A stretch of 64,000 nucleotides of DNA from Haloferax mucosum ATCC BAA-1512 (lineage in GTDB: Archaea; Halobacteriota; Halobacteria; Halobacteriales; Haloferacaceae): NCBI RefSeq assembly GCF_000337815.1, contig NZ_AOLN01000001.1:186001-250000 (forward strand), written 5' to 3'. A program made the position numbers and the translations under genes. How positions within the stretch are numbered: the stretch's first letter is position 1; the number at the start of each line of letters is the position of its first letter. Of this stretch, positions 24,845 to 43,095 are shown in pieces. A model generated the notes under the pieces. The model was not told the origin of the DNA. It searched no databases and worked only from the letters and a program-made list of their open reading frames with translations.

Positions 24845-27800
24845 TTAGGCGGCGACCGGAATCGCGTCAGCGTCGATGGATGCGGACGCCGACTCGTTCG
24901 TCGTCGAGTCGTCCGCGCTCGAATTGTCGCCGCCCGATTCCGTCAGGGAGAACTCCTGTTCGTTCCGTTCGAGCGAGACCTGTACGGTGCCGTCTTCAGC
25001 GCCGTTGACGAGGCCTTCCTCGACGGAGACGTTCGTCGCTTGGTAGCTGACGATGGTGTTGTTCCCCGTGAAGGACGTCGGTCCGGAGAAGCTGTAGTCG
25101 TCCACTGCGCGGACACTGACGTTCGTGTACCCGTTGTCGGGACCGTAGTTGTCGTAGCCCGTCGTGGAGTACGGAAGCGTCATGGTGAACTCACCGTTGG
25201 CGTCAACCTGCGCCTGCTGGGTGTAGTTGAACGTCGTTCCCGAGTCGGGGTCGCGCAGCTGGACGCGAGCGGTCACCGTCGAGTTGGCCGGGGCACCGTC
25301 GCCTTCGACCGTCGCGCCGGGGACGCGCTCGAACGTCTTGACCCACGAGGGGTTGCTACCGATGAGACCACGCGGCTGGATGCCGTAGGTGTTGCCGCTC
25401 CGGATGAGCGAGTTCTGGTACGACGCGGAGCGAAGCGCCGAACTGTTCGACGACTTCACGAGGCGGTAGTGTTCGAGGGCGGCGACGCGTTCCTCGGGGA
25501 ACTCGCCGAGACCGCCAATCTGCGAGGTCGTGTCGTTTGCGACGTACGACTTCGCGGCGTCCATGGTCCGGAACGTCTTGACCGGCTGGCCGTCACTCGG
25601 CGTTACCTTGTAGGTGACAGAGCCGTCCTGCGACACGCGCTCTTCCCAGTCAACGACGATTGGCGAGGGCGCGCGAGCACTGCCGTGGTACTTGTAGAGG
25701 CGGACCATCAGGCTCTCGTAGTAGCGCTGGTCTTTGACGTCTGCGGTCGAGGTGATGCGCTCTTGTCCGTTCTGCGTTTGCAGTCCGTAGAGCGTGCTGT
25801 AGAAGTCAGTCGTACTGACGTTCTGTCTGTTGTAGAAGATGGTCGGCGCACCGAACTTCGAGTCGGTCGAAGCCATCTGCCAATCGACCATGACGTAGCG
25901 GGTGTCTTCACCCTCTTCGCTCTGGTCTGCGAGGACGTCGGCGGCTTGCGTCTCGTTCGGCGACAGGAGGAAGTTTGCCGCCCCCTTTGCGCCCTGCTGG
26001 AACGGGTTGGCGTTCGGGATGCGTTCGCCGAGGACCGTAATCCAGTGACCGTAGTCCCACCACGACATGACGCCGTAGGTGCCGTCCGCGTACTCGAAGT
26101 CGTTCGTCGCCTTGTACGTGCCGTAGTACTCCATGTCGTTGGACGCGCCGCCGAACTCACCCTCTTCGGGGGTGTTGTTCTGCATCCAATCGAAGGTGCC
26201 CTGCCACTGGGTGACACCGCCGGGACCGTCCTGTGAGGACTGCAGTGCGTTACTGCTGGTTCCCGCGTTGCCGAGTTGAATCGGCACCATGAGAACCGGT
26301 GTGAGGACGAGGAGCAACGCGATGGCGACGACGGCGACCGTCCCGAGCGAGACGTCGTCGAGGCGGTCCACGTCGGCGAGACCGATAACGTCGAAAGAGA
26401 GAATCTCGCGGAGGAGGTACGCGTTCATCACCGCGACCGTGACTGCGAGATAGTAATTGAAACGAACCTGCGTGAAGGCGGCGGACGTGATGATGGCCGC
26501 CCAGACGAGTACGAAGAGCTGTTCGCTCTCGTAGTCGGCCTGCAACACTGCACCGACGATAAGAGCGGTGACGATGGCGAGGCTGACGAGTGCGGAGTCG
26601 ATGCCGACAGCGGAACCGATTCCGGCGGGGATGGCGGGCAGGAGGAAGATGAGTCCGATGACCGCCAGACTACCGAAGACGTATCCGACTTTTCGGACGT
26701 CGCCGTCTTTGACGAGCGGCTTGCCGACGAGCCAAATCGCACCGACGAGTCCGGTGAAGAACGTGAATCCGTATTCGGACATGATGCGTTCGGCCGCCGT
26801 CATGCCCGTAGACTGGAGCGTGTTTGCCGCGAGGAACGGCTGTGCCTCACCGATCGTTCGCGTCGCCGCACCGGCGCTGAAACCGACGGTACGGAGGAAG
26901 TTCCGTGCGATGCTGTTGAACGCGTCGGGGAGGACGACCGAAACGAGGACGATACCGGCGACCGCCAGTCCGCCGACCGCGACGGGGTAGCCACGGTCGT
27001 CAACGTCGTTGCGCTCCCAGAAGCGAGCCAGTCCGGCGAGGAAGACAGCGCCCAGTGCGATGACGAACGACACGACGGGCTGCAGCAGGCTGAAGCTCGT
27101 CGCGCTGAAGGACATCTCGTGAAGCGGGACGAACATCAGCAGTCCCGCGACGCCGAGCGAGACGGCACCGACGAACGCAACGTGTTCCGGGGACCGACCG
27201 CGGACGTAGTCCGCGACCATCTGTAGGACCAAGAAGAGACCGAAGATACCGACGAGAAGGACGCCCGGAGGCCACGACCACATGTACATGGCGATGGCGA
27301 CGCCGGCGAGCGCCGACCACAGCAGGGTCGAACGCAGTGCGTCGAGGTCCCGGGCGGCGACGAGTTCCCAAACCGGCTTTTCGCGGTTCGCAACCGTGAG
27401 GGCGATCATAATCGCCAGCACGGCGAAGCCCTGGAAGAACGGCTCTGCGATGTTGTGGTCGGCGAAGCCGACGAGACCGCGTCGCAGGAACGTTCCCGGC
27501 AGGAGCGCCAGAATGAGAACGCCGAAGAGACCGCCGAGGCGACCACCGAGGCGGCGACCGATGAGGAACGTCGGAATCGCAACGAGCGTCCCGAAGACCG
27601 CCGGTGCGACGAGAAGCGTCTTCGCAACGAGGTCGGGCGACGGACTCCCGAGACCGACGATGAGAGCGGCGGTCGCAATGATTTGGTCGTAAATCGTCCC
27701 GAACTGTCCGACGCTCGTTCCGAACGGGAAGTAGGTCCACGGGTCGAACGGCATCGTCGAAGGCCAGTTTTGGACCGTGTACGTCACCTCCCGAAGGTGG

Positions 27801-27985
27801 TACCAAGCGTCGTTTCCTGAGAAGAGGACTTCACCACCTCTAATGAAATTACTGTACGACCGAAGGCGAATGGTCAACATACCGACCAGTATCACGAGGA
27901 GGGCGGGTACGTGATACCAGTCTTTGGCGAGTTCGAGGACCGACTTCGCGTCGGAGTCCTCGATTCGCTCAGTGTCTACGCTCAT
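24845..27985 (-). CDS. aglB: Archaeal oligosaccharyltransferase AglB
   Basis: The 1046-residue STT3-family enzyme transfers the dolichol-linked glycan to Asn in N-x-S/T sequons on the outer membrane face. The N-terminal half has about 11-13 membrane helices. The first acidic motif is FSGNDAWYHLREVTYTV (G-N-D), and a TIYDQIIAT loop follows. The catalytic WWDYG motif is in GVMSWWDYGHWITVLGERIP. The C-terminal half is a soluble beta-rich outer domain ending in a Ser/Asp-rich tail. It has its own promoter region (palindromic CATAAGCCTTATG at 28011-28023) separated from the flippase gene upstream. Length and motifs are normal for Haloferax AglB. It anchors one end of the glycosylation locus. Confidence 0.97.
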   Translation of the reverse strand: MSVDTERIEDSDAKSVLELAKDWYHVPALLVILVGMLTIRLRSYSNFIRGGEVLFSGNDAWYHLREVTYTVQNWPSTMPFDPWTYFPFGTSVGQFGTIYDQIIATAALIVGLGSPSPDLVAKTLLVAPAVFGTLVAIPTFLIGRRLGGRLGGLFGVLILALLPGTFLRRGLVGFADHNIAEPFFQGFAVLAIMIALTVANREKPVWELVAARDLDALRSTLLWSALAGVAIAMYMWSWPPGVLLVGIFGLFLVLQMVADYVRGRSPEHVAFVGAVSLGVAGLLMFVPLHEMSFSATSFSLLQPVVSFVIALGAVFLAGLARFWERNDVDDRGYPVAVGGLAVAGIVLVSVVLPDAFNSIARNFLRTVGFSAGAATRTIGEAQPFLAANTLQSTGMTAAERIMSEYGFTFFTGLVGAIWLVGKPLVKDGDVRKVGYVFGSLAVIGLIFLLPAIPAGIGSAVGIDSALVSLAIVTALIVGAVLQADYESEQLFVLVWAAIITSAAFTQVRFNYYLAVTVAVMNAYLLREILSFDVIGLADVDRLDDVSLGTVAVVAIALLLVLTPVLMVPIQLGNAGTSSNALQSSQDGPGGVTQWQGTFDWMQNNTPEEGEFGGASNDMEYYGTYKATNDFEYADGTYGVMSWWDYGHWITVLGERIPNANPFQQGAKGAANFLLSPNETQAADVLADQSEEGEDTRYVMVDWQMASTDSKFGAPTIFYNRQNVSTTDFYSTLYGLQTQNGQERITSTADVKDQRYYESLMVRLYKYHGSARAPSPIVVDWEERVSQDGSVTYKVTPSDGQPVKTFRTMDAAKSYVANDTTSQIGGLGEFPEERVAALEHYRLVKSSNSSALRSASYQNSLIRSGNTYGIQPRGLIGSNPSWVKTFERVPGATVEGDGAPANSTVTARVQLRDPDSGTTFNYTQQAQVDANGEFTMTLPYSTTGYDNYGPDNGYTNVSVRAVDDYSFSGPTSFTGNNTIVSYQATNVSVEEGLVNGAEDGTVQVSLERNEQEFSLTESGGDNSSADDSTTNESASASIDADAIPVAA

Positions 27986-28050: not shown

Positions 28051-29514
28051 TCACGTACGACCCTCGTAGAGGTCTTTTGCGATCCAAAACACGTCGTTTC
28101 GGATGCTCGAACTCGATACGACGAGAAGCGCGAAGTAAACGACCGCACCGGTTAGAATCACGGCCGTAAGCCGGATAGCACCCGCCGAACCGCCGAGCAC
28201 GGACACGGTTGCCGTGGTTGCGAAGTACATCGCGCTCGCGGCGAACACCTGCGCGCCCACGTCGGTCAAAGACGAGGCGGACGGCCGGTAATTCAGTGTC
28301 GTTGACAGCACGCCGACACACGCGAGGAAACTAATCGTAGTTGTCCACCCGAGGCCCAGCGCGCCGAACCAGACCGTCAGCGGGTAGACGAACGCGACGT
28401 ACGTCCCGATGAGTGCGAGGCTTCCGAGGACGACCGGCCGCGGCCTGTCGATGCCGAGGAAGTAGCTATCGAGCGTTCCGCGGTAGCCGTTGAACAGATT
28501 CGCCAGTGCGAGTGTTGCGATGAGCGCGCTGGCGAGTCCGATTTCACCGACGAACGGAATTCCGACCGTTCCGGGCGAAATTTGGTAGACGGTCCGTAGC
28601 AGGTCGTTTCCGACCACCAACGCCCCCGCGATGAGCGGAATCGAGAACACGCCGCTGTAGGCGACGACGCGGTCGAAGAGCCGATGAACCTGCTCGTGAC
28701 GCTCTTCGGCCGTCAGCCTGGAGAATTCGGGGAACGATACCTTCGAGAGGGCGGCCGAAAACAGCATCGACGACTCCGAGATGGTAAACGAGACGCGGTA
28801 AATCCCCGCCGCGCCCGGGCCGAGAAGCCGGCCGATGACGATGTAGTCGGCCTGTTTGAAAAACTGCCCCGCGAGGGACTGGATGTAGGTGTTCTTGGAG
28901 AAGGTCACAAACGTTACCAGCGTCTCGCGTGTCGGGAGCGCCGGGCGGACTCGGGCGAAGCCGAAGTACGCGACGACGAACGTGAGCAGTTGGCCGAGAA
29001 TCAGCCCCCAGAGGAGACCCAGCACCTCGAACCCGCCGACGACGAACACCGTCTGAATACCCACGATGGCGACGTATCGGCCGTTTTCTAACATCCCACT
29101 GAGAGCGACGCGACCCTCACCTTCGAGAAACGCACCGGTCACTCTGAACAGGCTCCAACTGACGACGCCCAACGGGAGTAACAACGCGGCGTCAACGCCC
29201 AACGTCTCGTTTATCGGGCCGCGGAACAGCACCGACACGATCGCCGAAAGCAGGCCGCCGAGGGCGACGATAAAGAGCGCGGCGGTAAAGTGGCGTGCCT
29301 CGTCGTCACTGCCGCTGACGAACTTTGTGACGGTTACGAAGATGCCGAACCCGAAGGTAGCCCCCATGAGCATCTGAATGCTCTGGAAGATGGCGAACAC
29401 ACCGATGCCTTCGGCACCGAGGACGCGGGCGAAGTATATCGTCCCGAGGAATCCCGCGAGCGTGCCGAGGACGTTGGTGATGAACCGCTTGGAAACCTCG
29501 GCACCGACTTTCAT
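28051..29514 (-). CDS. Polysaccharide-type flippase (AglR-like)
   Basis: The 487-residue protein is a MATE/Wzx-type oligosaccharide exporter with 12-14 helices. It starts MKVGAEVSKRFITNVLGTLA, then GFLGTIYFARVLGAEGIGVF, as in the polysaccharide biosynthesis C-terminal family. In H. volcanii, AglR of this kind contributes to flipping dolichyl phosphate-mannose. Here it is the only flippase in the locus, so it probably moves the lipid-linked glycan to the outer face for AglB. Its start overlaps the stop of the upstream phosphodiesterase-like gene by four bases (ATGA), so the two are translated together. Confidence 0.88.
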   Translation of the reverse strand: MKVGAEVSKRFITNVLGTLAGFLGTIYFARVLGAEGIGVFAIFQSIQMLMGATFGFGIFVTVTKFVSGSDDEARHFTAALFIVALGGLLSAIVSVLFRGPINETLGVDAALLLPLGVVSWSLFRVTGAFLEGEGRVALSGMLENGRYVAIVGIQTVFVVGGFEVLGLLWGLILGQLLTFVVAYFGFARVRPALPTRETLVTFVTFSKNTYIQSLAGQFFKQADYIVIGRLLGPGAAGIYRVSFTISESSMLFSAALSKVSFPEFSRLTAEERHEQVHRLFDRVVAYSGVFSIPLIAGALVVGNDLLRTVYQISPGTVGIPFVGEIGLASALIATLALANLFNGYRGTLDSYFLGIDRPRPVVLGSLALIGTYVAFVYPLTVWFGALGLGWTTTISFLACVGVLSTTLNYRPSASSLTDVGAQVFAASAMYFATTATVSVLGGSAGAIRLTAVILTGAVVYFALLVVSSSSIRNDVFWIAKDLYEGRT

Positions 29515-31058
29515 TCGAGATACCCGAGTTCTCGGAGTCTGTCTTTCACCTCGTCTTCTCCTTCTTCGTCACCCGACAGACCGCCGCCGGTCACGGCGTC
29601 GGACCCTGTGAAGTCGTAGTACGATGGCGACCGAGTCGCGGGCTCCGAGCCGGGTTCGAACACGTCGAGGACGTCCCCGCTCGTGAGTTCGGGAATCTCG
29701 TAGCCGAGCGTGTGGAGAATCGTCGGCGCGACGTCCGTGATGTGTGCGCCTTCGACGGAGCCGGTTCGGAACGACGGGCCTCGCGCGAAGAAAACGCCGT
29801 CGCGGGCGTGTCCGCTCGTATCAACGTCGATGAGTGCCGAATCGGTATCGAGTCGGGACGACGCGTGAATCTCCGGCGTCTCGATTATCATTGCAAGGTC
29901 GGGCGTGTGGGGACCGCCGCGTTCGAGGCGTTTGAACGAGACGTCGAGACCGACGTCAGTCGCGCCCCGTCGGAGCGTCGCTTCCGCCTCGTCGCAAATC
30001 GCGTCCACTTGGGATTCGTCGTCCGAGAGCGCGTACACGAGCGTCGTCTTCTGTCCGACGTCACAGACTGCCTTCGTTCGGTCGAAGTCGATTCGGCCGA
30101 GGTTGATGGCGTTGTCGAGGCTCAGTGTATCCCCGGACGGGAGGCTGTTCACGAAGTCTTCAGGGACGACCTTGCGGGCGAACGAGAGCAAGCCGACCGT
30201 TCCGAGTGCGGTGCTCGCGTAATCCTTCAGCGACCCGAGCGTCGCTTTCGTGCTGTCGCCGGAGTCGGTCAGGTGAATGAACCCGTCGTCGGCGAGTACC
30301 TTGTTCGGCATGAACTTCCCGGTGACTTTCTCGAAGCCGTGGTCGCTCATGATGACGATGTCTTCGTCGTCGTGGGAATCGAGGAACTCGCTGAGACGTT
30401 CGTCAACCCGCTTGTACACCTGCAAGAGAGCGTTGTCGTCCGATACCTCCGTCTCCCAGTAGTGGTGTGCGACGCGGTCTGTCGCACGGATGAGACCGAC
30501 TGCGAGGTCGGGGTCTTCGGATTCGATGAAGTGTTCGAAGCCAGTGAACCGCTTGTCCACCAGTTCGAGGCTCAGATCGACGTAGGCTTGCGACCCCGGA
30601 ACCTTGTCGTTTCGGAGTTTGTACCCATCGACGAGTTCGACGAGTTCGTCCCACTTCTCCGGAGGGTGTGAGTACTCTTCTTTGTACTCCGGCGCGGCGG
30701 CGATAATCGCACCGTCGATAGCCTGCCACGGGTACGACCCGGGGATGTTGAAGACGACGCTTCGTCCGTCTTGGTCGTCTATCGCGTCCCACATCTTGCC
30801 GCGGACGAACTCGTCGTGACTCAAGTCGAGTTCGTTGGTATCGCGGTTGAAGTGGGTAAAACCGTACATATCGAACGATTCGGGGTCTCGCCCGGTGGCG
30901 AATGCGGGCCACGCGGGGACCGTGATTTCGGGGACTGTGCTCTCTAACTCTCCGTGAACACTCTCGTCCAGCAATCTGCTGAACGTCGGAAGGGCACCAG
31001 CCTCTACCCAAGGGCGAATAAGAGAGAAGGTGGCACCGTCGAGGCCGAGGACAATCAT
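29511..31058 (-). CDS. Phosphodiesterase-type alkaline phosphatase superfamily enzyme A
   Basis: The 515-residue protein belongs to the type I phosphodiesterase / nucleotide pyrophosphatase group. Metal-binding D is in MIVLGLDGATFSLI, the nucleophile Thr in EITVPAWPAFATGRDP, and a second metal site in IMSDHGFEKV. It has no signal peptide or membrane helix, so it should act in the cytoplasm. It ends LRELGYLE, a tail shared with five other enzymes of this locus. The start is set at the ATG 31058 directly before the VLGLDG strand and about 30 bases from an AT-rich box near 31085-31092; ATG 31079 is possible. It is coupled to the flippase. The substrate is unknown; a phosphate ester or diphosphate bond on a sugar or lipid carrier is the best guess. 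Confidence 0.82.
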   Translation of the reverse strand: MIVLGLDGATFSLIRPWVEAGALPTFSRLLDESVHGELESTVPEITVPAWPAFATGRDPESFDMYGFTHFNRDTNELDLSHDEFVRGKMWDAIDDQDGRSVVFNIPGSYPWQAIDGAIIAAAPEYKEEYSHPPEKWDELVELVDGYKLRNDKVPGSQAYVDLSLELVDKRFTGFEHFIESEDPDLAVGLIRATDRVAHHYWETEVSDDNALLQVYKRVDERLSEFLDSHDDEDIVIMSDHGFEKVTGKFMPNKVLADDGFIHLTDSGDSTKATLGSLKDYASTALGTVGLLSFARKVVPEDFVNSLPSGDTLSLDNAINLGRIDFDRTKAVCDVGQKTTLVYALSDDESQVDAICDEAEATLRRGATDVGLDVSFKRLERGGPHTPDLAMIIETPEIHASSRLDTDSALIDVDTSGHARDGVFFARGPSFRTGSVEGAHITDVAPTILHTLGYEIPELTSGDVLDVFEPGSEPATRSPSYYDFTGSDAVTGGGLSGDEEGEDEVKDRLRELGYLE

Positions 31059-31169
31059 CGTCCTGTGAGGCGTGTGCATCGCTGAAAAATAGTTCGGTCG
31101 TTAGCGGTTCAGTCACAGGACGCCCGTACACGCCGTTTACGGCCGATTACAACGGGCAACCAGACTCGG

Positions 31170-32774
31170 CTATTCGAGGTAGCCGAGGTCCGCGAGTCGT
31201 TCTTCGACCGACTCGTCGTCGGTCTGCATCCGCGCTTCGACTTCGAACTCGGGGTACGACTTGGGTTCGACTCCCTCGACCGCCGGGAGCGTCGTGCCGT
31301 CCATCTCCTCGTCAGGCGCGATGCCGAACGTCGAGAGCACCGTCGGCGCGACGTCGAACAAGTGCGCATCCGAGAGGTCAGCGGCTGTGTCAACCCCGTC
31401 GCCAGCGACGGCGACGATACCATCAGGTTTGTGATTCCACGGCTCTGGCGCGCCGAACGCGTCGCCGATGTGGACCGAAAGCGAGTTTTCGAAGTCGCGT
31501 GGGACACACAGAATATCGACCGCGTCGTCCGCGTACGGGCCGTGAATATACGTCTCGCGCGGGACGACCTCGTCGAAGACGGGGCGTCCCTCGGGGTCGG
31601 TCAGCGCGTCGAGTACCGAGATGATGTCGTCTCTGACGGACTCGTACTCCGATTCGGGGATGACGCCCGCGGGGTCGCGTCCGTCCACGTTCAGTCGAAC
31701 GCCGAGTTCCGACCCCGACCGGAGATAGCCGCTCGACGACTCGAACGAGACACTCTCGCTGGCGGCGAAGACCGCGCCGACGGGGACGTGTTTCCCGACG
31801 AACTCGGCGAGACCGAGGCGGTCGAGGATGGCTTTTCCGCGTTGGTAGGTCAGGCCGCCCTTGGCGGCGACGACGGCGAGGCGTTCGAGAAGCGTCGGGC
31901 CGTCTGCTTCGCCGTCGCCGTCAACCAGTCGTTCGTCTTTGATCTGGAACCACGAGGGAACGCCGCGACCGTCTGTGGAGGTGTTCAGAAAGCCTTCCTG
32001 TCGAAGGACCTCGTTGACGCGGACCTCGTGGCCGTCGTACTCGCCCATGCCGTGGTCGGACGCGACGACGACCACGTCGGGGTCGCAGGCCGACAGAATC
32101 TCGCCGAGTTGCTCGTCAACGGTTTCGTAGACCTCGCGGGCTTTGTCCAACTCGCCGGGAAAGTCGTGAAACACGGCGTCGGTCTTCTGGAACTGGACGA
32201 ACCCGAAGTCGGGGTCGAAGCGGTCTGCGAGGTAGCGGAACGTCTCCCCGCGGAGTTCCGTGAGTCGGAGGTACTCGCGGAATTTTGCGTCGTCATCGAC
32301 GCGTTCGTCGGTTTCGCGTTCGGCGTAGACGCGGTACTCGCCGACCGCCTCGCGGATGTCGTCGAGGATTCCTTCTGGGTGGCAGTCGGGTTCGTCGGGG
32401 GCGAGATAGCCCGGAACGACGGCACCGTCGATATGCCGCGGCGGGTGCGTGACGGGGGCGTTGACGACGACACTCGACAGGTCGTTCTCGTCGAGGTAGT
32501 CCCACATCGTTCGGGCCTTCACGTCCGAGCCATTGACCACGTCCCAGTCGTAGCCGTCGAACGCGAGGAAATCAAACACTCCGTGTTTGCCGGGATTCTT
32601 CCCGGTGTACAGCGACGGCCACGCGCTCGCGGTCCATGGAGGGATTTGGGACCGGAGTGGGCCAGTCGCCGCGTCCTCGAAGAGAGATGCAAGATTCGGC
32701 AGTGCGCCGTCCTCGAAGAGTGGATCGAGGACCGGCGCACAGGCCGCGTCGAGGCCAACGAGTAGCGTGCGCAT
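31170..32774 (-). CDS. Phosphodiesterase-type alkaline phosphatase superfamily enzyme B
   Basis: The 534-residue protein has the same fold signals as its neighbour: MRTLLVGLDAACAPVLDPL (first metal Asp), nucleophile Thr in PPWTASAWPSLYTGKNPGKH, and VVVASDHGMGEYDGHEV (second metal site). It ends VEERLADLGYLE. No export signal is present. The ATG at 32774 is chosen because a TATA-like TATGTAAAAAT (32795-32805, read on the minus strand) is centred 26 bases upstream; longer in-frame starts would put that box inside the gene. The NPGKHGVFDFLAF segment after the nucleophile is shared with the enzyme at 35597. The substrate is unknown; the context is N-glycan assembly. Confidence 0.82.
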   Translation of the reverse strand: MRTLLVGLDAACAPVLDPLFEDGALPNLASLFEDAATGPLRSQIPPWTASAWPSLYTGKNPGKHGVFDFLAFDGYDWDVVNGSDVKARTMWDYLDENDLSSVVVNAPVTHPPRHIDGAVVPGYLAPDEPDCHPEGILDDIREAVGEYRVYAERETDERVDDDAKFREYLRLTELRGETFRYLADRFDPDFGFVQFQKTDAVFHDFPGELDKAREVYETVDEQLGEILSACDPDVVVVASDHGMGEYDGHEVRVNEVLRQEGFLNTSTDGRGVPSWFQIKDERLVDGDGEADGPTLLERLAVVAAKGGLTYQRGKAILDRLGLAEFVGKHVPVGAVFAASESVSFESSSGYLRSGSELGVRLNVDGRDPAGVIPESEYESVRDDIISVLDALTDPEGRPVFDEVVPRETYIHGPYADDAVDILCVPRDFENSLSVHIGDAFGAPEPWNHKPDGIVAVAGDGVDTAADLSDAHLFDVAPTVLSTFGIAPDEEMDGTTLPAVEGVEPKSYPEFEVEARMQTDDESVEERLADLGYLE

Positions 32775-32858
32775 ACTGGCGACGACGACCATAGTATGTA
32801 AAAATCTCCCGTTCGGGTGACCGGACACGACGGTTCGACCCGACCGCCCGCACTCTCG

Positions 32859-34319
32859 TCAGCCGAGATAGCCCAGTTCGCGGAGGTTCCGCTCGACCGC
32901 GTCGCTGAACTCTCGGTCACCGCCGTCGTCCCCGCCGAACCCGTCGCCGAGGGTGTCAACGAGACGGTCTCGAAGCGACTCGACGAGTTCGGGGTCGGGG
33001 TCAGAGACGACCGTCTCGCCCGGCAGTTCGTAGAGCGCTTCACTCCCGTCCGAACGAATTTCGAATCGGTAGTCGGTCGTTCGGATGCTCTTTCGTCCCA
33101 GTTCGAGCGCGGTAACCGTCTCCGCTGAGACGTCGTCTGCGGCCGCGAGTTCGCGCTCGTCGGTCGGCGCGCGCTCACCGAACACGACGTCGCGCGCCTC
33201 GTCGCCGAAGAGGTCGATACCGGAGGTCGGCGGGCACTCGACATCACAGCACCCACACACGGTTGCGAACACGTCTGCGAGCGAGACCAAGTCCTCGCGG
33301 GTCTCGCCCGACGGGACACCCGGCCCAGAGATGAGAAGTGGGACGTGTAGAACCTCGTCGTACAGGAAGTCGCCATGACTCAATCCACCGTGTTCTCCGA
33401 AGTACTCGCCGTGGTCACTCGTGAGAATCAAGACGGTGTCGTCCAGTTTCCCCTGCGCTTCGAGCCAATCGAGGACACGGCCCACCTGGTCGTCGAGGTA
33501 CCGGACTGAGGCGTCGTACCATTGCTCGACGATGCCGAGTTCGCTGTCGGTGACGTACGAGCGGTCGTCTAAATAGCGCAATCGGATGTCTTGGATGTGT
33601 TCGCCGTCAGCGACGCCGAACACACGGTCTTCTCGAACGTCGTCGCGGTCGAGGCTCCCGCTCGTCGTGAACTCTTCGAGAATCGGGAGTCGAGGTCGAG
33701 ACAGTTCCGGTGTCTCCGCTTCCTTGTACGGACGCGGCGGGTCGTACGGGGCGTGGACGGTCGTGAGGTTCATCATCCCGAAGAACGGATTCGTCGTCTC
33801 CGCGAGACCCTCTTGGAACTTCTCGATTCGAAGCTCGTTGTAGTAGTCGTTGCCGCGGGTCAGTATCCGAATAAAGTCGCGCCGAATCGCGGGGTCGGTG
33901 AGGAGTTGTTTGAACCACGCCGCAGATGGCCGTTTAGCAACTGCCTCGTACGCCTCGTAGTACCAATCGAATCCGCGGTCGAGTCCCGTCGCCGACGCCA
34001 TCTTCGCCGGACCCGGGACGCCAACGGTGTCGTAACCGTTGTCTCGAAGCACCTCCGCGAGAAGCGGCACGCTCTCGTCCATCCACGGCATGCCGCCAGT
34101 AAATCCGGTTTCCGACGGCCATCGCCCGGAAAAGAGTGTTCCGTGTGCGGGGGGCGTCCACGGCCCGGCGGAGAACGCGTTTTCGAAGCGGACTCCCTCT
34201 TCTGCGACGCGGTCGATATTCGGCGTCTCGACGGCGTCGTCACTGTAACACGAGAGTGCATCGACTCGGAGCGTATCAAAGATGAGGAGAACTACGTTAG
34301 GGTGACGGGGAGAGACCAT
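32859..34319 (-). CDS. Sulfatase-fold enzyme with Thr in place of formylglycine Cys
   Basis: The 486-residue protein has the sulfatase (PF00884-type) fold: VVLLIFDTLRVDALSCY with the metal Asp pair, and LTSDHGEYFGEHGGLSHGDF with the second metal site. In true sulfatases the nucleophile motif is Cys/Ser-x-Pro-x-Arg. Here the aligned segment is AGPWTPPAHGTLFSGRWP, with Thr and no Arg. It is therefore unlikely to be a formylglycine sulfatase and more like phospho-transferring members such as phosphoglycerol transferases. There is no signal peptide. It ends NLRELGYLG. Minus-strand AACTTATCATT around 34343-34353 gives a TATA box about 29 bases before the ATG. It is divergent from the glycosyltransferase at 34538. 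Confidence 0.82.
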   Translation of the reverse strand: MVSPRHPNVVLLIFDTLRVDALSCYSDDAVETPNIDRVAEEGVRFENAFSAGPWTPPAHGTLFSGRWPSETGFTGGMPWMDESVPLLAEVLRDNGYDTVGVPGPAKMASATGLDRGFDWYYEAYEAVAKRPSAAWFKQLLTDPAIRRDFIRILTRGNDYYNELRIEKFQEGLAETTNPFFGMMNLTTVHAPYDPPRPYKEAETPELSRPRLPILEEFTTSGSLDRDDVREDRVFGVADGEHIQDIRLRYLDDRSYVTDSELGIVEQWYDASVRYLDDQVGRVLDWLEAQGKLDDTVLILTSDHGEYFGEHGGLSHGDFLYDEVLHVPLLISGPGVPSGETREDLVSLADVFATVCGCCDVECPPTSGIDLFGDEARDVVFGERAPTDERELAAADDVSAETVTALELGRKSIRTTDYRFEIRSDGSEALYELPGETVVSDPDPELVESLRDRLVDTLGDGFGGDDGGDREFSDAVERNLRELGYLG

Positions 34320-34500
34320 ATCGGGCGGTTCGTTCTCCTCAATGATAAGTTGAAATGTCTGTCAACAACGGTGAGGGTAGCTACCATGGTGAGGGGACGA
34401 GTTCGCACGACTGGACGCCCCCCCAACCAGTCAGTCCCGGTTACGAATGTGTCCGTCTCACTGACTTCTTCGATGCGGCTGTCCCCCGTACGTCCGCTTC

Positions 34501-34510
34501 CTTTTTATCC
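34501..34510 (+). promoter_or_regulatory. TATA box fixing the glycosyltransferase start at 34538
   Basis: CTTTTTATCC is centred 32 bases before ATG 34538 and lies inside the longer open frame that begins at 34355. It therefore supports the shorter protein. Confidence 0.5.
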
Positions 34511-34537
34511 GATGCCGCGACTCGTTCAGGATATACT

Positions 34538-35572
34538 ATGGACCTCGATTCCGCTCGCGTGGCCATGCTCTTTCAGGACCCGCACCCGGCACACCGGGGG
34601 TTCGCCGAGGCCATCGGCGCGGACCTCGTCGACTTCCGTGGCTTTTCGCCCGACGTTCTCGGCGACGGCATCCCGGCCGACGTGGTCAACGGCATCCGCG
34701 CCCCGAAGTACGACGTGTATCTCGTCGAGGGGTCCCGCCCGCTCTACGCCGCACTGGTCAACCGTGTGATTCGAGGCTCCAAACTCGTGTATCTCTGTGC
34801 CGACCACGGATTGTACAGTCTCGGCCGCGACGACTTCGAGGGAAGTTCGGCGGTGAAATCGCTGGTCGGTCGGTTCGGCCAGCCCCTCGTCCGAACGATT
34901 GGGTCGCGTTACATCGACGGTGTGGTCGCAGTCTCCGACTTCGCGGCCGACTTCACTCGCCCTATCGTCGGCGAGGACACGCCGATTGCCGTCTCCCACC
35001 CCTTCGTCCAGCCGGACGTGTTCGAGGCGCTCGGCTCGGTAACGCCGGATATCGAGAGCAAGGTCGCCGTCACGGTCGGTCGGCCGGAGCGATACAAGGG
35101 CGTTGACCTGCTCGTCGAGGCGTGGCCGATGGTCAGAGAGCGCCACCCCGAGGCCGAACTCCACGTCGTCGGCGGTGGTCATCCGGAGTCGTACGAACGG
35201 ACCGAGGGAGTCACCGTCCGCGGCTACGTCGAGGCCCTCGAAGATGCGTTCGAACCGGCGTCCCTGTACGTGCAACCGTCGCGTATGGACACTTTCCCGG
35301 TAAGCGTGCTCGAAGCGATGCGCGCCGGACTGCCGCCGGTCGTGACCGACGCGACGGGAACGAAATCCGAAGTGCGCGAACTCGACCCATCGCTCGTGGT
35401 TGAACCCACGCCGTCGGCACTCGCAACCGGCGTGGCAACGTACTTCGACCGAACGCCCTCCGAGCGCCGTCGCCTCTCCGAAAACGCAAGCGCGCGCGGT
35501 GCGACGTTCGACGCCGAATCGAGACAGGACGCGTTCAGAGCGGCATTCGCCAGTGTACTCGAAGAATTTTAA
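34538..35572 (+). CDS. Family 4 glycosyltransferase
   Basis: The 344-residue GT-B enzyme has an N-terminal acceptor domain (MDLDSARVAMLFQDPHPAHR; DVYLVEGSRPLYAALVNRVI). Its C-terminal donor domain contains VAVTVGRPERYKGVDLLVEA and the donor-binding block ASLYVQPSRMDTFPVSVLEA. The E-x7-E-like motif (SRMDTFPVSVLEA) is modified at the first position. It has no membrane helix. The next gene starts 24 bases downstream with its own TATA box (AATTTTAAAC, about 35565-35574) overlapping the end of this gene. The donor sugar and acceptor are unknown. In context it probably adds one sugar of the dolichol-linked glycan. Confidence 0.85.
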   Translation: MDLDSARVAMLFQDPHPAHRGFAEAIGADLVDFRGFSPDVLGDGIPADVVNGIRAPKYDVYLVEGSRPLYAALVNRVIRGSKLVYLCADHGLYSLGRDDFEGSSAVKSLVGRFGQPLVRTIGSRYIDGVVAVSDFAADFTRPIVGEDTPIAVSHPFVQPDVFEALGSVTPDIESKVAVTVGRPERYKGVDLLVEAWPMVRERHPEAELHVVGGGHPESYERTEGVTVRGYVEALEDAFEPASLYVQPSRMDTFPVSVLEAMRAGLPPVVTDATGTKSEVRELDPSLVVEPTPSALATGVATYFDRTPSERRRLSENASARGATFDAESRQDAFRAAFASVLEEF

Positions 35573-35596
35573 ACGTCTACCGACGAGACTCAATCC

Positions 35597-37150
35597 ATGA
35601 CCGTATACGTCGTCGGGCTCGACGGGGCCGATTGGTCGCTCCTCCGACGGTGGATGGACGACGGGGGTCTCCCCGCCTTCGAACGCCTCTGTTCGGGCGG
35701 CGTCGATGCCGACCTCGAAAGTACACTGCCGCCGATTACGTTCCCCGCGTGGAAGTGCTACTCCACGGGGAAGACACCCGGAAAACTCGGCGTCTACGAG
35801 TGGTTCTCGTTCGACCACGACACCTGCGATATCTCGACGAACGACTCCTCGGACTTCCGCTCGCGCGAGTACTGGGACGTGCTCGTCGATGCGGGCGTGA
35901 AACCGGGCGTGGTGAACATGCCGACGACGCACCCGCCGCGGACGACAGACGGCGTGCTCACTATCGCCGGGAGTCCCGCCTCGGAGCGCGGCGAGTTCAC
36001 GTCGCCCGCATCGCTCAAAGCCGACCTTCTCGATGCAATCCCCTCGTACCGGGTCAAACCGAACCTCGTCCTCAGCGAGGCGTCGCCGGACGAACTGATA
36101 ACGGAGGCTCAGACGCTCGCAGACCAGCGCTTCGAGGCCGCCGAGTGGCTGGCGACCGACCGCGACTGCGACTTCGTGCACACGACGGTATTCATCACAG
36201 ACACCGTCCAGCACCGTCTTTGGGACCGCCCGGACCACATCCGCCGTCTCTACGAGCGAATCGACGCTCGCCTCGGCGAACTCCTCGACCGCGACGACAC
36301 GGAGGCGGTCTTCCTGATGAGCGACCACGGATTCGTCGAAATCGACGAGACGTTCCTCGTCAACCAGTGGCTCGCAGAGCGAGACGACCTCATCGTCGAA
36401 GCGGAGTCGTCTCGGAACCTACTCGCGTCGGTCGGGCTCACCGAAGAACGCCTCAAACGCGTGGTCGATACGCTCGGTCTCGTCAGTCTCGCACAGGCCG
36501 TCGTTCCCGAATCGGTCCAGCGGTGGTTCCCGAGTGAGAGCGGTCGCATCTCGATTCAGGACGCCGCAATCGACTGGGACGAGACGAAAGCCATCTCGCT
36601 CGGCCGCGGCCCGGTCTACGTCAACGACCGCGCGTTCGACTCCGACGCCGACAAGGACGCGTACGTCGCGGACCTCACCGCGGCGTTCGAATCGCTCGAA
36701 ACGCCCGACGGAACGCCCGTCGCCGAGGCCGTCCACGACCCCGCCGACATCTACACGGGTTCGATGCCGCTCTCGCCGGACCTCCTCGTCGAGTACACGA
36801 CTGGCGTCGATGCCCCCGAATCCCTCGGCGGCGACGTGTTCGGCGAGCAGTTGGTCTGGCTTGCGACCCACCGCCACCACGGGGTGTTCGCCGCGTGGGG
36901 CGACGACATCGCCGCAGACGATGTCGCTATCGACCCGACGCTGTACGACCTCGCCCCGACCATCCTCCACTACCTCGGCGTTCCGATGCCGGAGGACGCA
37001 GACGGGTCAGTGCTCTCGTCGCTTTTCACCGGCGACGTCGCCGACAGACCGGTCGAGACGGGACCTGCGACTGCGACCGATGTCGGCGACAATCGCGCCG
37101 ACCAACGCGACGTCGAGGAGACGCTGAAGAGTTTGGGGTACGTTGAATAA
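35597..37150 (+). CDS. Phosphodiesterase-type alkaline phosphatase superfamily enzyme C
   Basis: The 517-residue protein starts MTVYVVGLDGADWSLLRRWM (first metal Asp). The nucleophile Thr is in PPITFPAWKCYSTGKTPGKL, and FLMSDHGFVEIDETFLVNQW is the second metal site. The later TRH-type region is WLATHRHHGVFAAWGDD. It has no export signal and ends ETLKSLGYVE. It is closely related to enzymes A and B of this locus. The stop is one base from the ATG of the next gene, so it is co-translated with a sulfatase-fold partner. A leaderless promoter lies in the tail of the preceding glycosyltransferase gene. The substrate is unknown. Confidence 0.82.
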   Translation: MTVYVVGLDGADWSLLRRWMDDGGLPAFERLCSGGVDADLESTLPPITFPAWKCYSTGKTPGKLGVYEWFSFDHDTCDISTNDSSDFRSREYWDVLVDAGVKPGVVNMPTTHPPRTTDGVLTIAGSPASERGEFTSPASLKADLLDAIPSYRVKPNLVLSEASPDELITEAQTLADQRFEAAEWLATDRDCDFVHTTVFITDTVQHRLWDRPDHIRRLYERIDARLGELLDRDDTEAVFLMSDHGFVEIDETFLVNQWLAERDDLIVEAESSRNLLASVGLTEERLKRVVDTLGLVSLAQAVVPESVQRWFPSESGRISIQDAAIDWDETKAISLGRGPVYVNDRAFDSDADKDAYVADLTAAFESLETPDGTPVAEAVHDPADIYTGSMPLSPDLLVEYTTGVDAPESLGGDVFGEQLVWLATHRHHGVFAAWGDDIAADDVAIDPTLYDLAPTILHYLGVPMPEDADGSVLSSLFTGDVADRPVETGPATATDVGDNRADQRDVEETLKSLGYVE

Positions 37151-37151
37151 G

Positions 37152-38501
37152 ATGGTCTCTCTCAAACGATTCCCACGGCTCAACAATATGTGGGTGAACA
37201 CGAAGCACAAACTCGCCCACTGGCGCGAACGACGGGGACGAGCGACCGCTCACGAGGTGCGCGTCGGAGCACCCCAAAACGTCCTGTTCGTCGTCATCGA
37301 CTGTCTGCGAGCGGACCACGTCTCCGGATTCGGACACGACAGGCCGACGACACCCACGCTCGATTCGTTCGACGGCCGGTCCTTTTCGACGGCGACCGCG
37401 ACGAGTACGTGGACGTTCCCGTCTATCGCGTCGCTCGTCTCCGGTCGGTATCCACACGAACACGGCGGTCGATTCGACACTGACCCGCGAGACCTCTCGT
37501 CTGAGCAGTTCCCAACGCGCCCGCGGTCGGACGTGCCGACACTCCCCGAACTGCTCGAATCGGCGGGTTACGACACCGCGATGGTCAGCGCCATCCCGAT
37601 GGCCGAAAAATCGGTCGGCGACCGGTTCCAGTCGGTCGATATCAAGTACACTGACGCCACAGAGCGCGTGGACGCGGCGCTCGATTGGACCGACTCCCGC
37701 GACCGTTGGTTCCTTCATCTCCAACTCGGTGACCCGCACGCGCCGCTCGACATTCCAGCGAGACACCGCGAGCGATTCGGCGTTCCCGACGTTGAAGGAC
37801 TCGAAGATTGGCGCTTCCGAGAATCGACCGACGGTGCTGACTTCGAAGAATACCGAGATGCCCGGAAGCGCGCGTACGACGCGGGTATTCGCGGCGCGGA
37901 CGACGAACTCGGACGGCTCTTCGAGGCGGTTCCGGACGACACCATCGTCGTCGTCTGTGGCGACCACGGCGAGGCGTTCTGGGAACACACCGACCTCGAA
38001 CGACGCCTGAACGACGACCCAAGAGGGTTCTACGGCACCGACCACGGCCACAGTGTCTTCGAAGAGACCGCAACGGTTCCGCTGTGGATCGATGCGCCGA
38101 CCGTCGAACCCGGTCGAGACGACACGCGCGTCTCGCTCGTCGATGTCGTTCCGACCGTCGCCGACGCGCTCGAACTCGAAAACGCACCGGAGTTCTCCGG
38201 ACGTCCGCTCTCGCAGGACTCGGAGTCGCCAACACCGATTCTGTGCGAGGAGACCGGGTACGGCTACAACCAACGCGCCGTCTGGCTCAGCGACCGAAAA
38301 CTCATCGACGTGCCCGAGACGGGGACGACCGTGTGGTTCGACCTCGGCGACGACCCGAAAGAGGCGACCACGCGCGACGACCCGCCGGCGGACCTCCGCG
38401 AGGCGTACGAGACGTTCGGCATGGGCGTCCACGGTGACGAAAAGATGGAGGTCGATTCGGCGACGCGCGGCAGACTCGAAGAACTCGGCTATCTGGAGTG
38501 A
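37152..38501 (+). CDS. Sulfatase-fold enzyme, Thr nucleophile, coupled to enzyme C
   Basis: The 449-residue protein has a basic N-terminal leader (MVSLKRFPRLNNMWVNTKHK), then NVLFVVIDCLRADHVSGFGH with the metal Asp and VVVCGDHGEAFWEHTD with the second site. The nucleophile segment is TSTWTFPSIASLVSGRYPHE, with Thr rather than the sulfatase Cys. It ends LEELGYLE. The basic leader is not a signal peptide; it could be an amphipathic membrane-surface helix. The ATG at 37152 follows the preceding stop after one base, so the pair is translationally linked. It converges with the gene at 38632, with a tandem repeat between them. Confidence 0.82.
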   Translation: MVSLKRFPRLNNMWVNTKHKLAHWRERRGRATAHEVRVGAPQNVLFVVIDCLRADHVSGFGHDRPTTPTLDSFDGRSFSTATATSTWTFPSIASLVSGRYPHEHGGRFDTDPRDLSSEQFPTRPRSDVPTLPELLESAGYDTAMVSAIPMAEKSVGDRFQSVDIKYTDATERVDAALDWTDSRDRWFLHLQLGDPHAPLDIPARHRERFGVPDVEGLEDWRFRESTDGADFEEYRDARKRAYDAGIRGADDELGRLFEAVPDDTIVVVCGDHGEAFWEHTDLERRLNDDPRGFYGTDHGHSVFEETATVPLWIDAPTVEPGRDDTRVSLVDVVPTVADALELENAPEFSGRPLSQDSESPTPILCEETGYGYNQRAVWLSDRKLIDVPETGTTVWFDLGDDPKEATTRDDPPADLREAYETFGMGVHGDEKMEVDSATRGRLEELGYLE

Positions 38502-38553
38502 GAACTCTCGAATTCGTCGATTCAGAATCCGACGGTTCGACTGTTTGTCCGAA

Positions 38554-38643
38554 GCGACTAGTTTCCGAACAGCGCTATTCCGGTAGCGACTTTCGAACGG
38601 TTTTATTCGAGGGAGCGGTTTCCGAGCGATTCTATTCGAGGTA
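38554..38643. repeat. Three imperfect tandem repeats of about 30 bases
   Basis: The region between two convergent genes consists of three related units starting GCGAC or GCGGT and containing TTTCGAAC, then TATTC and GAGG or CGGT (starts near 38554, 38586 and 38615). The third unit runs into the last codons of the minus-strand gene, where its TATTCGAGGTAG encodes Tyr-Leu-Glu-stop in reverse. The end of the gene appears to have been copied outwards. Confidence 0.5.
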
Positions 38644-39996
38644 GCCTAACTCGCGGAGGTGCTCTTCGACCATCTCTTCGCCTTCATCGACGCCGCCGAC
38701 GCCGCTTCTGAGGTCCGCCATCTCTTGCATGTGTTTGTCGAGGACGGCGGAGAGTTCGTCGTACTCCGGCACGCCGTCGCCCGAGCGGTCGTCTTCGGGG
38801 CGTTCGTCGGGTGTCTCCGTGATGTCGAAACAGAACTCGCCGTCGTCGGCGTGGCGGAGGAGTTTCCACCCGTCGCTCCGGCGGACGTAACACCGCTTGT
38901 AGTCGATTTGCCGGCCGACGCCACCGAAGGCAAACTCGCGGCTCTCGACGGTGCCGCGGGCGACATCGAGCGCGGATTCCCCGTTCCACTCGGGGGGTAT
39001 CTCCAGTCCGACCGCGTCGGTCAACGTCGGTGCCGTATCGAGGAGGCGAATCTGTCCTTCGACCGTTCCGGTTTCGTCCACGCCGCTCAGGATGAAGGGA
39101 ACACGAACGGTCCCTTCCCAGAACTCGGCGGGGTGGCCTGCATTGCCGTGTTCGCCGACGAGTTCGCCGTGGTCGGCGGTGAAACAGATGGTCGTGTCGT
39201 CTACGACTCCGCGCTGGTCGAGTTCGCCCATGAACGATTCGAACTGGTCGTCAACGTAGGCGCACTCGGCGTCGTACAGGTTACGAATCAGTTCCCACTC
39301 TTCGTCTGTCACCTCTTCGGGGTGGTGTGTGCCCTTCCGCGAGAGCCGACGACAGTCGGCAACCCCAACCGGTTCGCCGAGGAACTGCCGCTGATACTCT
39401 TCGGGGGCCTCGTAAGGGTGATGGACGTCCATGTAGTGGAGCCAGACGAACCAGTCTTCGCCTTCCTCGCGTTCGTCTATCCAATCGAGCGCGCGACGGT
39501 TGAGCGAGGCGGCCCGCTCGTACTCGCTTTCGTTGCCGACGGTCGTAGACCACATGGCATCGACCTGCGTGTAGACCCGCTCGATGGTCTTGAACAGGAC
39601 GCCCTCCTTGTCGAGGTTCGACTGGACGAACTGCTTGAGCTTTCCGGCCTCGGCGGAGCCGCTGGCGTCGTGCATCGTGTCGAAGCCTCTGTCGAAGTGG
39701 TAAGACCCACTGGTGAAGTGGTTGTCAGTGTAGCCCGAGGTAGCAAAGCCAGCGTCGCGGAGTCGTTCTGCGAGGGTCACGATGTCGCGTCCGCCAGCGG
39801 GAAGCCCAAGACCGTCGATGCTGGCGAAATGGCGACTCGCGTGGATTGACGGGAACGAAGCGGGAGTCGATGGGCCGTTCGCAACACACTGGGTAAACTC
39901 CAGCGAATCGTCCGCGAAAGACCGCGTAAACGGCATGACCCGCTCGTTCACGCGGTCGTATCTGAGAGAGTCCACAGTGACGAGCAGCACGTTCAT
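38632..39996 (-). CDS. Sulfatase-fold enzyme with STP nucleophile segment
   Basis: The 454-residue protein starts MNVLLVTVDSLRYDRVNERV (metal Asp) and has TICFTADHGELVGEHGNAGH (second metal site). The nucleophile region is ANGPSTPASFPSIHASRHF; Ser or Thr could serve, and there is no Cys-x-Pro-x-Arg. WFVWLHYMDVHHPYEAPEEY is a conserved substrate-side segment. It ends EHLRELGYLE. There is no signal peptide. It is transcribed towards the enzyme at 37152 and away from the methyltransferase side. It may hydrolyse or transfer a phosphate or sulfate ester on a glycan intermediate; which one cannot be told from sequence alone. Confidence 0.8.
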   Translation of the reverse strand: MNVLLVTVDSLRYDRVNERVMPFTRSFADDSLEFTQCVANGPSTPASFPSIHASRHFASIDGLGLPAGGRDIVTLAERLRDAGFATSGYTDNHFTSGSYHFDRGFDTMHDASGSAEAGKLKQFVQSNLDKEGVLFKTIERVYTQVDAMWSTTVGNESEYERAASLNRRALDWIDEREEGEDWFVWLHYMDVHHPYEAPEEYQRQFLGEPVGVADCRRLSRKGTHHPEEVTDEEWELIRNLYDAECAYVDDQFESFMGELDQRGVVDDTTICFTADHGELVGEHGNAGHPAEFWEGTVRVPFILSGVDETGTVEGQIRLLDTAPTLTDAVGLEIPPEWNGESALDVARGTVESREFAFGGVGRQIDYKRCYVRRSDGWKLLRHADDGEFCFDITETPDERPEDDRSGDGVPEYDELSAVLDKHMQEMADLRSGVGGVDEGEEMVEEHLRELGYLE

Positions 39997-40761: not shown

Positions 40762-41802
40762 TCAGGCGTACACGTCGAGAAGTCGTTCGACGACGGTGTC
40801 CCAGTCGATGACCGTCTCCGCCGCGGGATTCGTCCGTTTGCTCGCCTCTCGTACCGCCGAGGCGACGCGCGCTGACTCGGTGTCTGAGACGCCGACGACG
40901 CCGGGTTCCGTCGTCCAGTCGGTGAGCGCGGCGGCGTTGAGGACGACACAGGGCGTCCCCGCGGTTAGCGCCTCTGCGACGGTCATTCCGTACGCTTCGA
41001 ATTCGCTGAGCGTCACGTATGCCGCGGCCCCCGCGTAGAGTCCGGGGAGGTCCTCGTCGGCGACGTAGCCGAGGAATTCGACGCGGTCGGAAACGCCCGC
41101 TCGGGCGGCGATTTGCTCCAACTCGTCGCGGTAGTCGCCGCTTCCGGCGACAAGTAGGTCGTACTCCGGAAGCTCCGAAAGCGCCCGAATCGCGTGTTGG
41201 ACGCCTTTGTACTCCTCTAACCGGCCGACGGTCAGTACGTACGGTCGGTTCCGTTCGGTCGCCGTCGCCGACGCGAATCGGTCGCGTTCCAGCCCGTTCG
41301 GAATGACCGTCGCATCGACGCCGAAGTCGGCTTCGAGATGCGAGCGCTCCCAGTCGCTCACGGCGACCACTCGGTCCGCACGGCGAACCGCCCACCGGCC
41401 GACCGGATGGTACAGCGACAGGAGTCGGTCACGGATCGAACTCGCGCTCGCGCCGTGGTAGTGCGGCGTCGCCACGAACCGCCGGTCGCCGACGCCGAGG
41501 GCCGCGAAAAAAAGCGGGAACGAGTGATAGTTGTGTGCGTGTACGACGTCGGCGTCGGCCTGTCTCACCGCGCGGGCGACGTGCGGGCAGATGTGCATCG
41601 CACCGCCGGGTGCGACGCCTCGGAGCCGGCGCACGCGAACGCCGTTGCGTCGCTCGCGGTGAAAGCCGTCGCCACCGGCGTCGGCGGTGACGACGGTCAC
41701 GTCGTGACCGCGGTTGACGAGACGTTCCGACACTTCGCGGACGTGCGTTTCGACACCGCCGGACTGCGGCGGATACCGCGGCGTCACCTGCAGTATCTTC
41801 AT
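40762..41802 (-). CDS. Family 4 glycosyltransferase (second)
   Basis: The 346-residue GT-B enzyme starts MKILQVTPRYPPQSGGVETH, the classic N-terminal glycine-rich loop of GT4 enzymes. It continues with VVHAHNYHSFPLFFAALGVG and the mid-segment VIPNGLERDRF. The donor domain has LTVGRLEEYKGVQHAIRALS and the E-x7-E motif in LSEFEAYGMTVAEALTAGTP. It is complete and has no membrane helix. It lies 36 bases downstream of the family 2 glycosyltransferase on the same strand, so the two probably form an operon. The sugar specificity is unknown. It should act on the cytoplasmic face in building the lipid-linked glycan. Confidence 0.9.
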   Translation of the reverse strand: MKILQVTPRYPPQSGGVETHVREVSERLVNRGHDVTVVTADAGGDGFHRERRNGVRVRRLRGVAPGGAMHICPHVARAVRQADADVVHAHNYHSFPLFFAALGVGDRRFVATPHYHGASASSIRDRLLSLYHPVGRWAVRRADRVVAVSDWERSHLEADFGVDATVIPNGLERDRFASATATERNRPYVLTVGRLEEYKGVQHAIRALSELPEYDLLVAGSGDYRDELEQIAARAGVSDRVEFLGYVADEDLPGLYAGAAAYVTLSEFEAYGMTVAEALTAGTPCVVLNAAALTDWTTEPGVVGVSDTESARVASAVREASKRTNPAAETVIDWDTVVERLLDVYA

Positions 41803-42993: not shown

Positions 42994-43095
42994 GGTCCGC
43001 CCTTGACGGACTGCGACAAAAATCCCGACGGTCCGCTCGGAGCGCGCACCGGGTTTCGGAACCACTTTTAAGCATCCCCCTCACAGGTACGGCCG

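Follow-up and report, generated by a model that had tools for sequence, protein, structure and literature searches.

What might a haloarchaeon gain from six enzymes of the alkaline phosphatase (AP) superfamily that are all encoded between aglB and aglJ, at the heart of an N-glycosylation locus? We addressed this question in a stretch of 64,000 nucleotides from Haloferax mucosum ATCC BAA-1512, hereafter referred to as the window (Table 1). The six AP-superfamily open reading frames (ORFs) are full length and intact, and Pfam searches bear out the division into three phosphodiesterase-type and three sulfatase-fold genes that a preliminary description of this DNA had proposed. PDE-1, PDE-2 and PDE-3 match PF01663, the NPP type (E-values 4.8e-36, 1.6e-33 and 1.1e-34, respectively), and SULF-1, SULF-2 and SULF-3 match PF00884, the sulfatase fold (4.8e-45, 5.5e-32 and 1.2e-32). 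AglB scores above the cut-off of its model and AglJ reaches 454 bits against a cut-off of 325. On the minus strand, the genes follow each other in the order aglB, flippase, PDE-1, PDE-2 and SULF-1; a plus-strand run of GT4, PDE-3 and SULF-2 is succeeded by SULF-3, GT4 and GT2 (minus) and by aglJ (plus). An internal ATG is probably the real start of PDE-2, and SULF-2 has an alternative TTG start codon at position 37143. The transporter gene adjoining aglB has a likely, or at least plausible, function in recycling the dolichol-phosphate carrier.

Table 1. Genes of the aglB-aglJ region of H. mucosum (positions in the window).
Feature	Position	Strand	Remarks
Polyprenyl-phosphate transporter	23780..24748	-	PF04018; adjoins aglB
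AglB oligosaccharyltransferase	24845..27985	-	TIGR04154
Wzx/MOP-type flippase of the cassette	28051..29514	-	4-base overlap with PDE-1
PDE-1, NPP-type AP-fold enzyme	29511..31079	-	Thr53 nucleophile; tail RLRELGYLE
PDE-2, NPP-type AP-fold enzyme	31170..32828	-	PF01663; tail RLADLGYLE
SULF-1, sulfatase-fold enzyme	32859..34319	-	Thr55 at formylglycine position; tail NLRELGYLG
GT4 glycosyltransferase, cassette member	34355..35572	+	70% in Haloprofundus (L017), 64% in Halolamina (L049)
PDE-3, NPP-type AP-fold enzyme	35597..37150	+	PF01663; tail TLKSLGYVE
SULF-2, sulfatase-fold enzyme, basic N-terminal extension	37152..38501	+	tail RLEELGYLE
SULF-3, sulfatase-fold enzyme	38632..39996	-	PF00884; tail HLRELGYLE
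GT4 glycosyltransferase	40762..41802	-	
GT2 glycosyltransferase	41839..43065	-	
AglJ, first-sugar dolichol-phosphate glycosyltransferase	43096..44022	+	TIGR04182

The six proteins appear to operate in the cytosol. Neither a signal peptide nor a membrane helix was predicted in any of them by Kyte-Doolittle analysis over 19 residues, as had been stated before; the best window among the six scores 1.67, located in the first strand of PDE-2 together with its upstream start, versus 2.6-2.8 for the flippase and AglB. Where the preliminary description had left the nucleophile as Thr or Ser/Thr, the alignment column from which we read it, in AP-fold ORFs detected by profile searches, holds Thr in all six. 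This column contains Thr in 116, Ser in 78, Cys in two and Pro in one of 199 sulfatase-fold sequences (two have a gap), and Thr in 31 and Ser in four of 35 NPP-type sequences. The sulfatase-fold profile aligns with formylglycine sulfatases over most of its length, with Thr/Ser at the formylglycine position, onto which Thr55 of SULF-1 falls; the Arg four residues downstream is lost (T55-P-P-A-H in SULF-1 versus S-T-P-A-R in 7oz8). The C/S-x-P-x-R signature with its modified Cys is absent from the six proteins, which have Thr instead and no CxPxR. The earlier statement that the sulfatase-fold members lack the formylglycine Cys is thus correct, and its corollary, that they do not remove sulfate, is supported. 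Intact metal motifs were likewise confirmed. The conserved residues are D15, R18, H189, D302, H303 and H315 in the sulfatase-fold set (SULF-1 numbering), and D14, T53, D201, H205, D246 and H247, along with H424 in most sequences, in the NPP-type set. All three NPP-type proteins of the window possess these residues, including a His at the H424 column; we take the D14-, D201-, H205-, D246- and H247-type residues to be the metal binders of NPPs, and H424 is probably a metal ligand as well. The classical PAPS sulfotransferase fold (PF00685, PF13469 and similar) found no Pfam match in the six proteins, nor did any of them match a defence-system model.

Structure prediction, which had been suggested as a check, yielded AP-type folds for both proteins modelled. 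The PDE-1 model (pLDDT 86.2) has 332 PDB matches at E<=0.001 with ENPPs on top, ENPP1 and ENPP3 being the best, and nucleotide pyrophosphatases, several with bound AMP, among them. The NPP fold is assigned to PDE-1 by its model and to PDE-2 and PDE-3 by PF01663 only; a search with the profile of the NPP-type set hit phosphonoacetate hydrolase as well as NPPs. PDE-1 resembles ENPP1 and the Xanthomonas NPP (7mw8, 7n1s) in fold, Thr nucleophile and Asp/His set (D14, D201, H205, D246, H247 and probably H424), but it differs from these enzymes in being cytosolic, in its glycan cluster, in a C-terminal LGY tail and in an identity of about 14%. The SULF-1 model (pLDDT 84.4) is best matched by the phosphonate monoester hydrolase 4uph, its top match, and by carbohydrate sulfatases. 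The SULF-1 protein shows weak similarity to the LtaS, EptA and MCR family models. Type I formylglycine sulfatases (7oz8, 6pt6, 5g2v) are alike in fold, metal-side Asp, DHG-type motifs and carbohydrate context, whereas the cassette enzymes have Thr for Cys/formylglycine, have lost the Arg at +4, are cytosolic and carry a flexible LGY tail.

Sulfotransferases with a sulfatase fold were reported in 2025 for one archaeon (PMC11980604). In Halobacterium salinarum, the AP-domain proteins VNG1056C (Agl30) and VNG1057C (Agl31), encoded in the aglB cluster, were shown genetically, by deletion and heterologous expression, to be sulfotransferases acting on the third and fourth sugar of the N-glycan; expression of either one alone in Haloferax volcanii leads to sulfation of the glycan of this host, and only basal N-glycan sulfation remains in the double deletion (PMC11980604). 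That paper leaves the mode of action of these enzymes open. In view of Agl30 and Agl31, the earlier argument from a missing Cys to phosphate instead of sulfate does not follow: action of the H. mucosum enzymes on lipid-linked glycan intermediates is probable, but a preference for phosphate or phosphodiester chemistry over sulfate is not supported. H. salinarum Agl30 and Agl31 share with the six proteins the AP-like fold, the aglB-anchored cluster and, as outlined below, the LxxLGY C-terminus; Agl31 is soluble, as predicted here for all six, while Agl30 is membrane-associated. Three AP-domain genes were considered in H. salinarum, with no phosphodiesterase-type gene named, in contrast to three of each type here. 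A possible further counterpart is H. volcanii Agl7 (HVO_2046), which contributes to sulfation of the dolichol-phosphate-bound hexose (PMC3871713). In the portions available of a paper on Haloferax glycosylation clusters, the words sulfatase and phosphodiesterase do not occur (PMC5867893).

All six AP-fold proteins terminate in L-x-x-L-G-Y followed by two residues. This tail on AP-fold enzymes of aglB loci is a new observation; in the literature covered, to which most subscription journals do not belong, we found neither a shared tail nor an AP-fold sulfotransferase mechanism beyond PMC11980604. In 80 named aglB loci (flanks of up to 10 kb, some shorter), LxxLGY lies at most four residues from the stop in 112 of 119 closed AP-fold ORFs and in none of 4051 other ORFs, a lenient background as many of the latter are spurious. 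Within the last 25 residues, it is present in 217 of 237 AP-fold ORFs and in ten of 6002 others, six of which are copies of two CysD-like proteins; these counts from 138 sources (loci plus window) are not independent, as some loci, e.g., L001 and L120, repeat named ones. Across the whole genome, the DNA pattern LxxLGYxx-stop (TAA/TGA) has six matches, all of them AP-fold genes and four in the window (PDE-2 and SULF-3 end in TAG and hence fall outside it), versus one match in the reversed control. Tail and Thr/Ser nucleophile go together. Every scorable tail-bearing AP ORF has Thr or Ser (214/214; SULF: T 109, S 76; PDE: T 29), with a gap at this column in two further tail-bearing SULF rows; tail-less AP ORFs have Cys (2), Thr (7), Ser (4) or Pro (1). 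The only two Cys-type sulfatases in the aligned set are tail-less, as are its Ser-type PDE homologues.

The tail is absent from all 11 AP-fold ORFs read outside the order, in regions from eight of nine same-phylum genomes with a match, although several of these ORFs have the Thr. Two of them form a pair at L179:3002-8463, where one NPP-type and one sulfatase-fold Thr enzyme, both without the LGY tail, flank a flippase and an epimerase close to glycosyltransferases.

The proven sulfotransferases carry the tail as well, since the cloning primers in Table 1 of PMC11980604, translated by us, encode ...HLEDLGYL for VNG1056C and ...LEELGYT for VNG1057C; the motif in these H. salinarum proteins is read from primers and is not a published criterion. 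A validation primer from the same source encodes ...KELGYIE for VNG1063H, the third gene with an AP fold in this H. salinarum cluster, which did not affect N-glycan sulfation (PMC11980604). Not every tail-bearing AP-fold gene of such a cluster is consequently an N-glycan sulfotransferase, a point that weighs against the proposal made below. When 392 genomes of the order were searched for one published primer with a single mismatch allowed, 26 genomes matched with one mismatch and none exactly. Among the loci read were 20 regions from seven of 13 genomes of a genus, g44, that is probably Halobacterium; for 11 primers, no match in any locus had fewer than two mismatches. GLWTPGY, from a qPCR primer frame, was dropped as the nucleophile site of VNG1056C because a search for such a site among AP-fold proteins came up empty.

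These data lead us to propose, with a probability of roughly 60%, that all six enzymes are position-specific, cytosolic, glycan-decorating transferases, the sulfatase-fold three being sulfotransferases of the Agl30/Agl31 type and the NPP-type three phospho- or sulfotransferases. It is supported by three features that all six have in common with the sulfating enzymes Agl30 and Agl31: where the genes lie in the cluster, the AP-superfamily fold and the C-terminal LxxLGY. Further support comes from the pairing of tail and Thr/Ser nucleophile, from the alignment of this residue with the formylglycine position, from the contribution of Agl7 to sulfation, from an rmlABD cluster of another Haloferax genome with four tail-bearing AP-fold ORFs and from the retention of the cassette as a unit. 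Taken by themselves, the sulfatase-fold three are, by analogy, quite likely to be sulfotransferases. The NPP-type three are most likely glycan-decorating transferases for either phosphate or sulfate; transfer of a phosphate group is quite possible. They resemble phosphodiesterases, and their fold does not, therefore, indicate sulfate transfer.

For the donor, the acceptor sugars, a covalent sulfo-Thr step and the reaction of the NPP-type enzymes, we infer the following scheme. The dolichol-phosphate-linked N-glycan would be decorated in the cytosol. In SULF-1, Thr55 beside one divalent metal (Asp15, Asp302, His303) would be sulfurylated by an activated sulfate donor and hand the group on to a sugar hydroxyl rather than to water, because Thr cannot release sulfate in the way hydrated formylglycine does. 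With their two-metal set and Thr nucleophile, the NPP-type enzymes would decorate other positions of the glycan with a second kind of acidic substituent, namely a phosphate ester, or with sulfate once more. The decorated lipid-linked glycan would then be flipped by the cassette flippase and used by AglB.

Other assignments of the six enzymes have to be weighed against this proposal. If all of them were phosphate-group enzymes, that is, phosphoglycerol-, phosphoethanolamine- or phosphosugar-type transferases, their Thr would work as in LtaS or EptA, to which SULF-1 is weakly similar; its top structural match, the phosphonate monoester hydrolase, and the NPP fold of PDE-1 would agree, as would the uniform Thr nucleophile. 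LtaS, EptA and the GPI-ethanolamine-phosphate transferases are indeed AP-superfamily enzymes that use a Thr nucleophile to place a group on a glycan that is lipid-linked or exposed at the surface. They are, however, membrane-anchored, with an N-terminal membrane domain in LtaS and EptA, and act outside the cell or in the lumen, whereas the six proteins lack any hydrophobic helix. As experiments on enzymes alike in fold, type of cluster and tail have shown addition of sulfate and not of phosphate (PMC11980604), and as the passages of the literature cited here contain no phosphorylated haloarchaeal N-glycan, we consider this assignment unlikely.

A division of labor, with the sulfatase-fold enzymes adding sulfate and the NPP-type ones performing housekeeping through cleavage of donor nucleotide by-products or trimming of pyrophosphate-linked intermediates, would fit the AMP-bound nucleotide pyrophosphatases matched by PDE-1 and the conserved NPP-like metal residues. 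We nevertheless find it doubtful, as three adjacent NPP-type enzymes from separate orthologous groups with a common tail suggest three substrates and not one clean-up reaction. A scavenging role of the six, as conventional sulfatases or phosphatases of catabolism, is what their top Pfam and NCBIfam names, sulfatase and phosphodiesterase, would imply; it appears highly improbable for six proteins devoid of both an export signal and a formylglycine Cys, whose genes sit within the aglB-aglJ cluster and whose tail is missing from the Cys-type sulfatases and Ser-type PDE homologues of the aligned set.

Decoration by sulfotransferases presupposes an activated sulfate donor, and here the genome offers a counterpoint: ATP sulfurylase (PF01747) has no match in it, and its sole PF01583 match, considered as a candidate APS kinase, is FtsY. 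Two tandem CysD-like proteins (PF01507) are encoded at L109:6498-8737; their nearest solved relative is 1zun_A, the sulfate adenylyltransferase subunit 2. Of 59 genomes searched in the order, 56 contain homologues and eight have two copies; both proteins end in RLRDLGYM, a C-terminus present in 37 of 37 CysD-like copies from 30 loci. The tail pattern with one residue after the Tyr has two matches in the H. mucosum genome and four in the reversed control, so this count is uninformative, and weight attaches solely to the conservation within CysD-like copies. Bacterial CysD ends in ...GYF; the alignment with 1zun_A did not extend to its tail. Descent from a common CysD ancestor is therefore as probable an explanation as a partner shared with the AP enzymes, and this likeness of sequence may serve as a lead only.

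In the PDE-1 and SULF-1 models, the tail is a helix predicted with low confidence that follows a disordered linker, an arrangement that would fit a docking element without proving one. One could imagine that LxxLGY, at the end of a flexible tether, acts as a docking tag through which sulfatase- and NPP-type glycan transferases alike reach a common partner. Because the ten C-terminal residues of the CysD-like protein are nearly identical (M-x-R-L-R-D-L-G-Y-M), sulfate activation and hand-over may be what this tag is for; adenylyl sulfate itself or an unrecognized donor would then supply all six enzymes, as sulfotransferases with two sub-folds, in the absence of a recognizable Sat or APS kinase. 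We offer this as a speculation that is, on balance, rather improbable.

The preliminary description regarded six copies for one glycan as excessive. This argument is weak, as other loci contain up to seven AP-fold ORFs at a distance of at most about 10 kb from aglB, and 50 of the 80 named loci contain at least one. The six are, moreover, not the organism's whole AP set, because genome-wide searches returned five strong PF00884 and about eight strong PF01663 genes; a PDE-2 paralogue with 53% identity is encoded elsewhere in the genome (L113). The survey of haloarchaeal agl loci that had been suggested found most of the cassette, in conserved order, in Haloprofundus marisrubri (L017), with orthologues of PDE-1 (69%), PDE-2 (68%), SULF-1 (54%), PDE-3 (67%), GT4 and the flippase (53%). 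The cassette is best kept there and in Halolamina rubra (L049), which has orthologues of PDE-2, PDE-3, SULF-2 and GT4 at 60-64%. Among the named aglB loci, it is Haloferax that has the nearest relatives of the window's AglB, with identities of up to 81%. In the remaining Haloferax loci that were read, there are no cassette orthologues at 45% or more, except for PDE-2 relatives at 53-57%, found in this genome (L113) and in two others (L133, L134); a suspected cassette in another Haloferax genome (L118) was rejected by this threshold. Such distant orthologues, together with the absence from other Haloferax loci read, would fit horizontal exchange of a decoration module.

The locus suggests that sulfatase-fold transferases are encoded in mixed sets, together with relatives of the NPP type, and that a single short tail makes them recognizable. 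If this is true, many haloarchaeal genes annotated as sulfatases or phosphodiesterases would be biosynthetic, glycan sulfation patterns would become more predictable from sequence, and the shared tail would offer a direct handle on the sulfate donor route.

In another Haloferax genome, rmlA, rmlB and rmlD lie with four tail-bearing AP-fold ORFs within 16 kb (L123:1056-16848), an rmlABD cluster that calls to mind the genes for the low-salt glycan in H. volcanii. SULF-2 has a Lys/Arg-rich N-terminal extension of about 40 residues (37143-37290), atypical for an acidic haloarchaeal protein, which may provide peripheral membrane contact; N-terminal extensions are also present on some AP-fold ORFs in other Haloferax loci (L123, L122).
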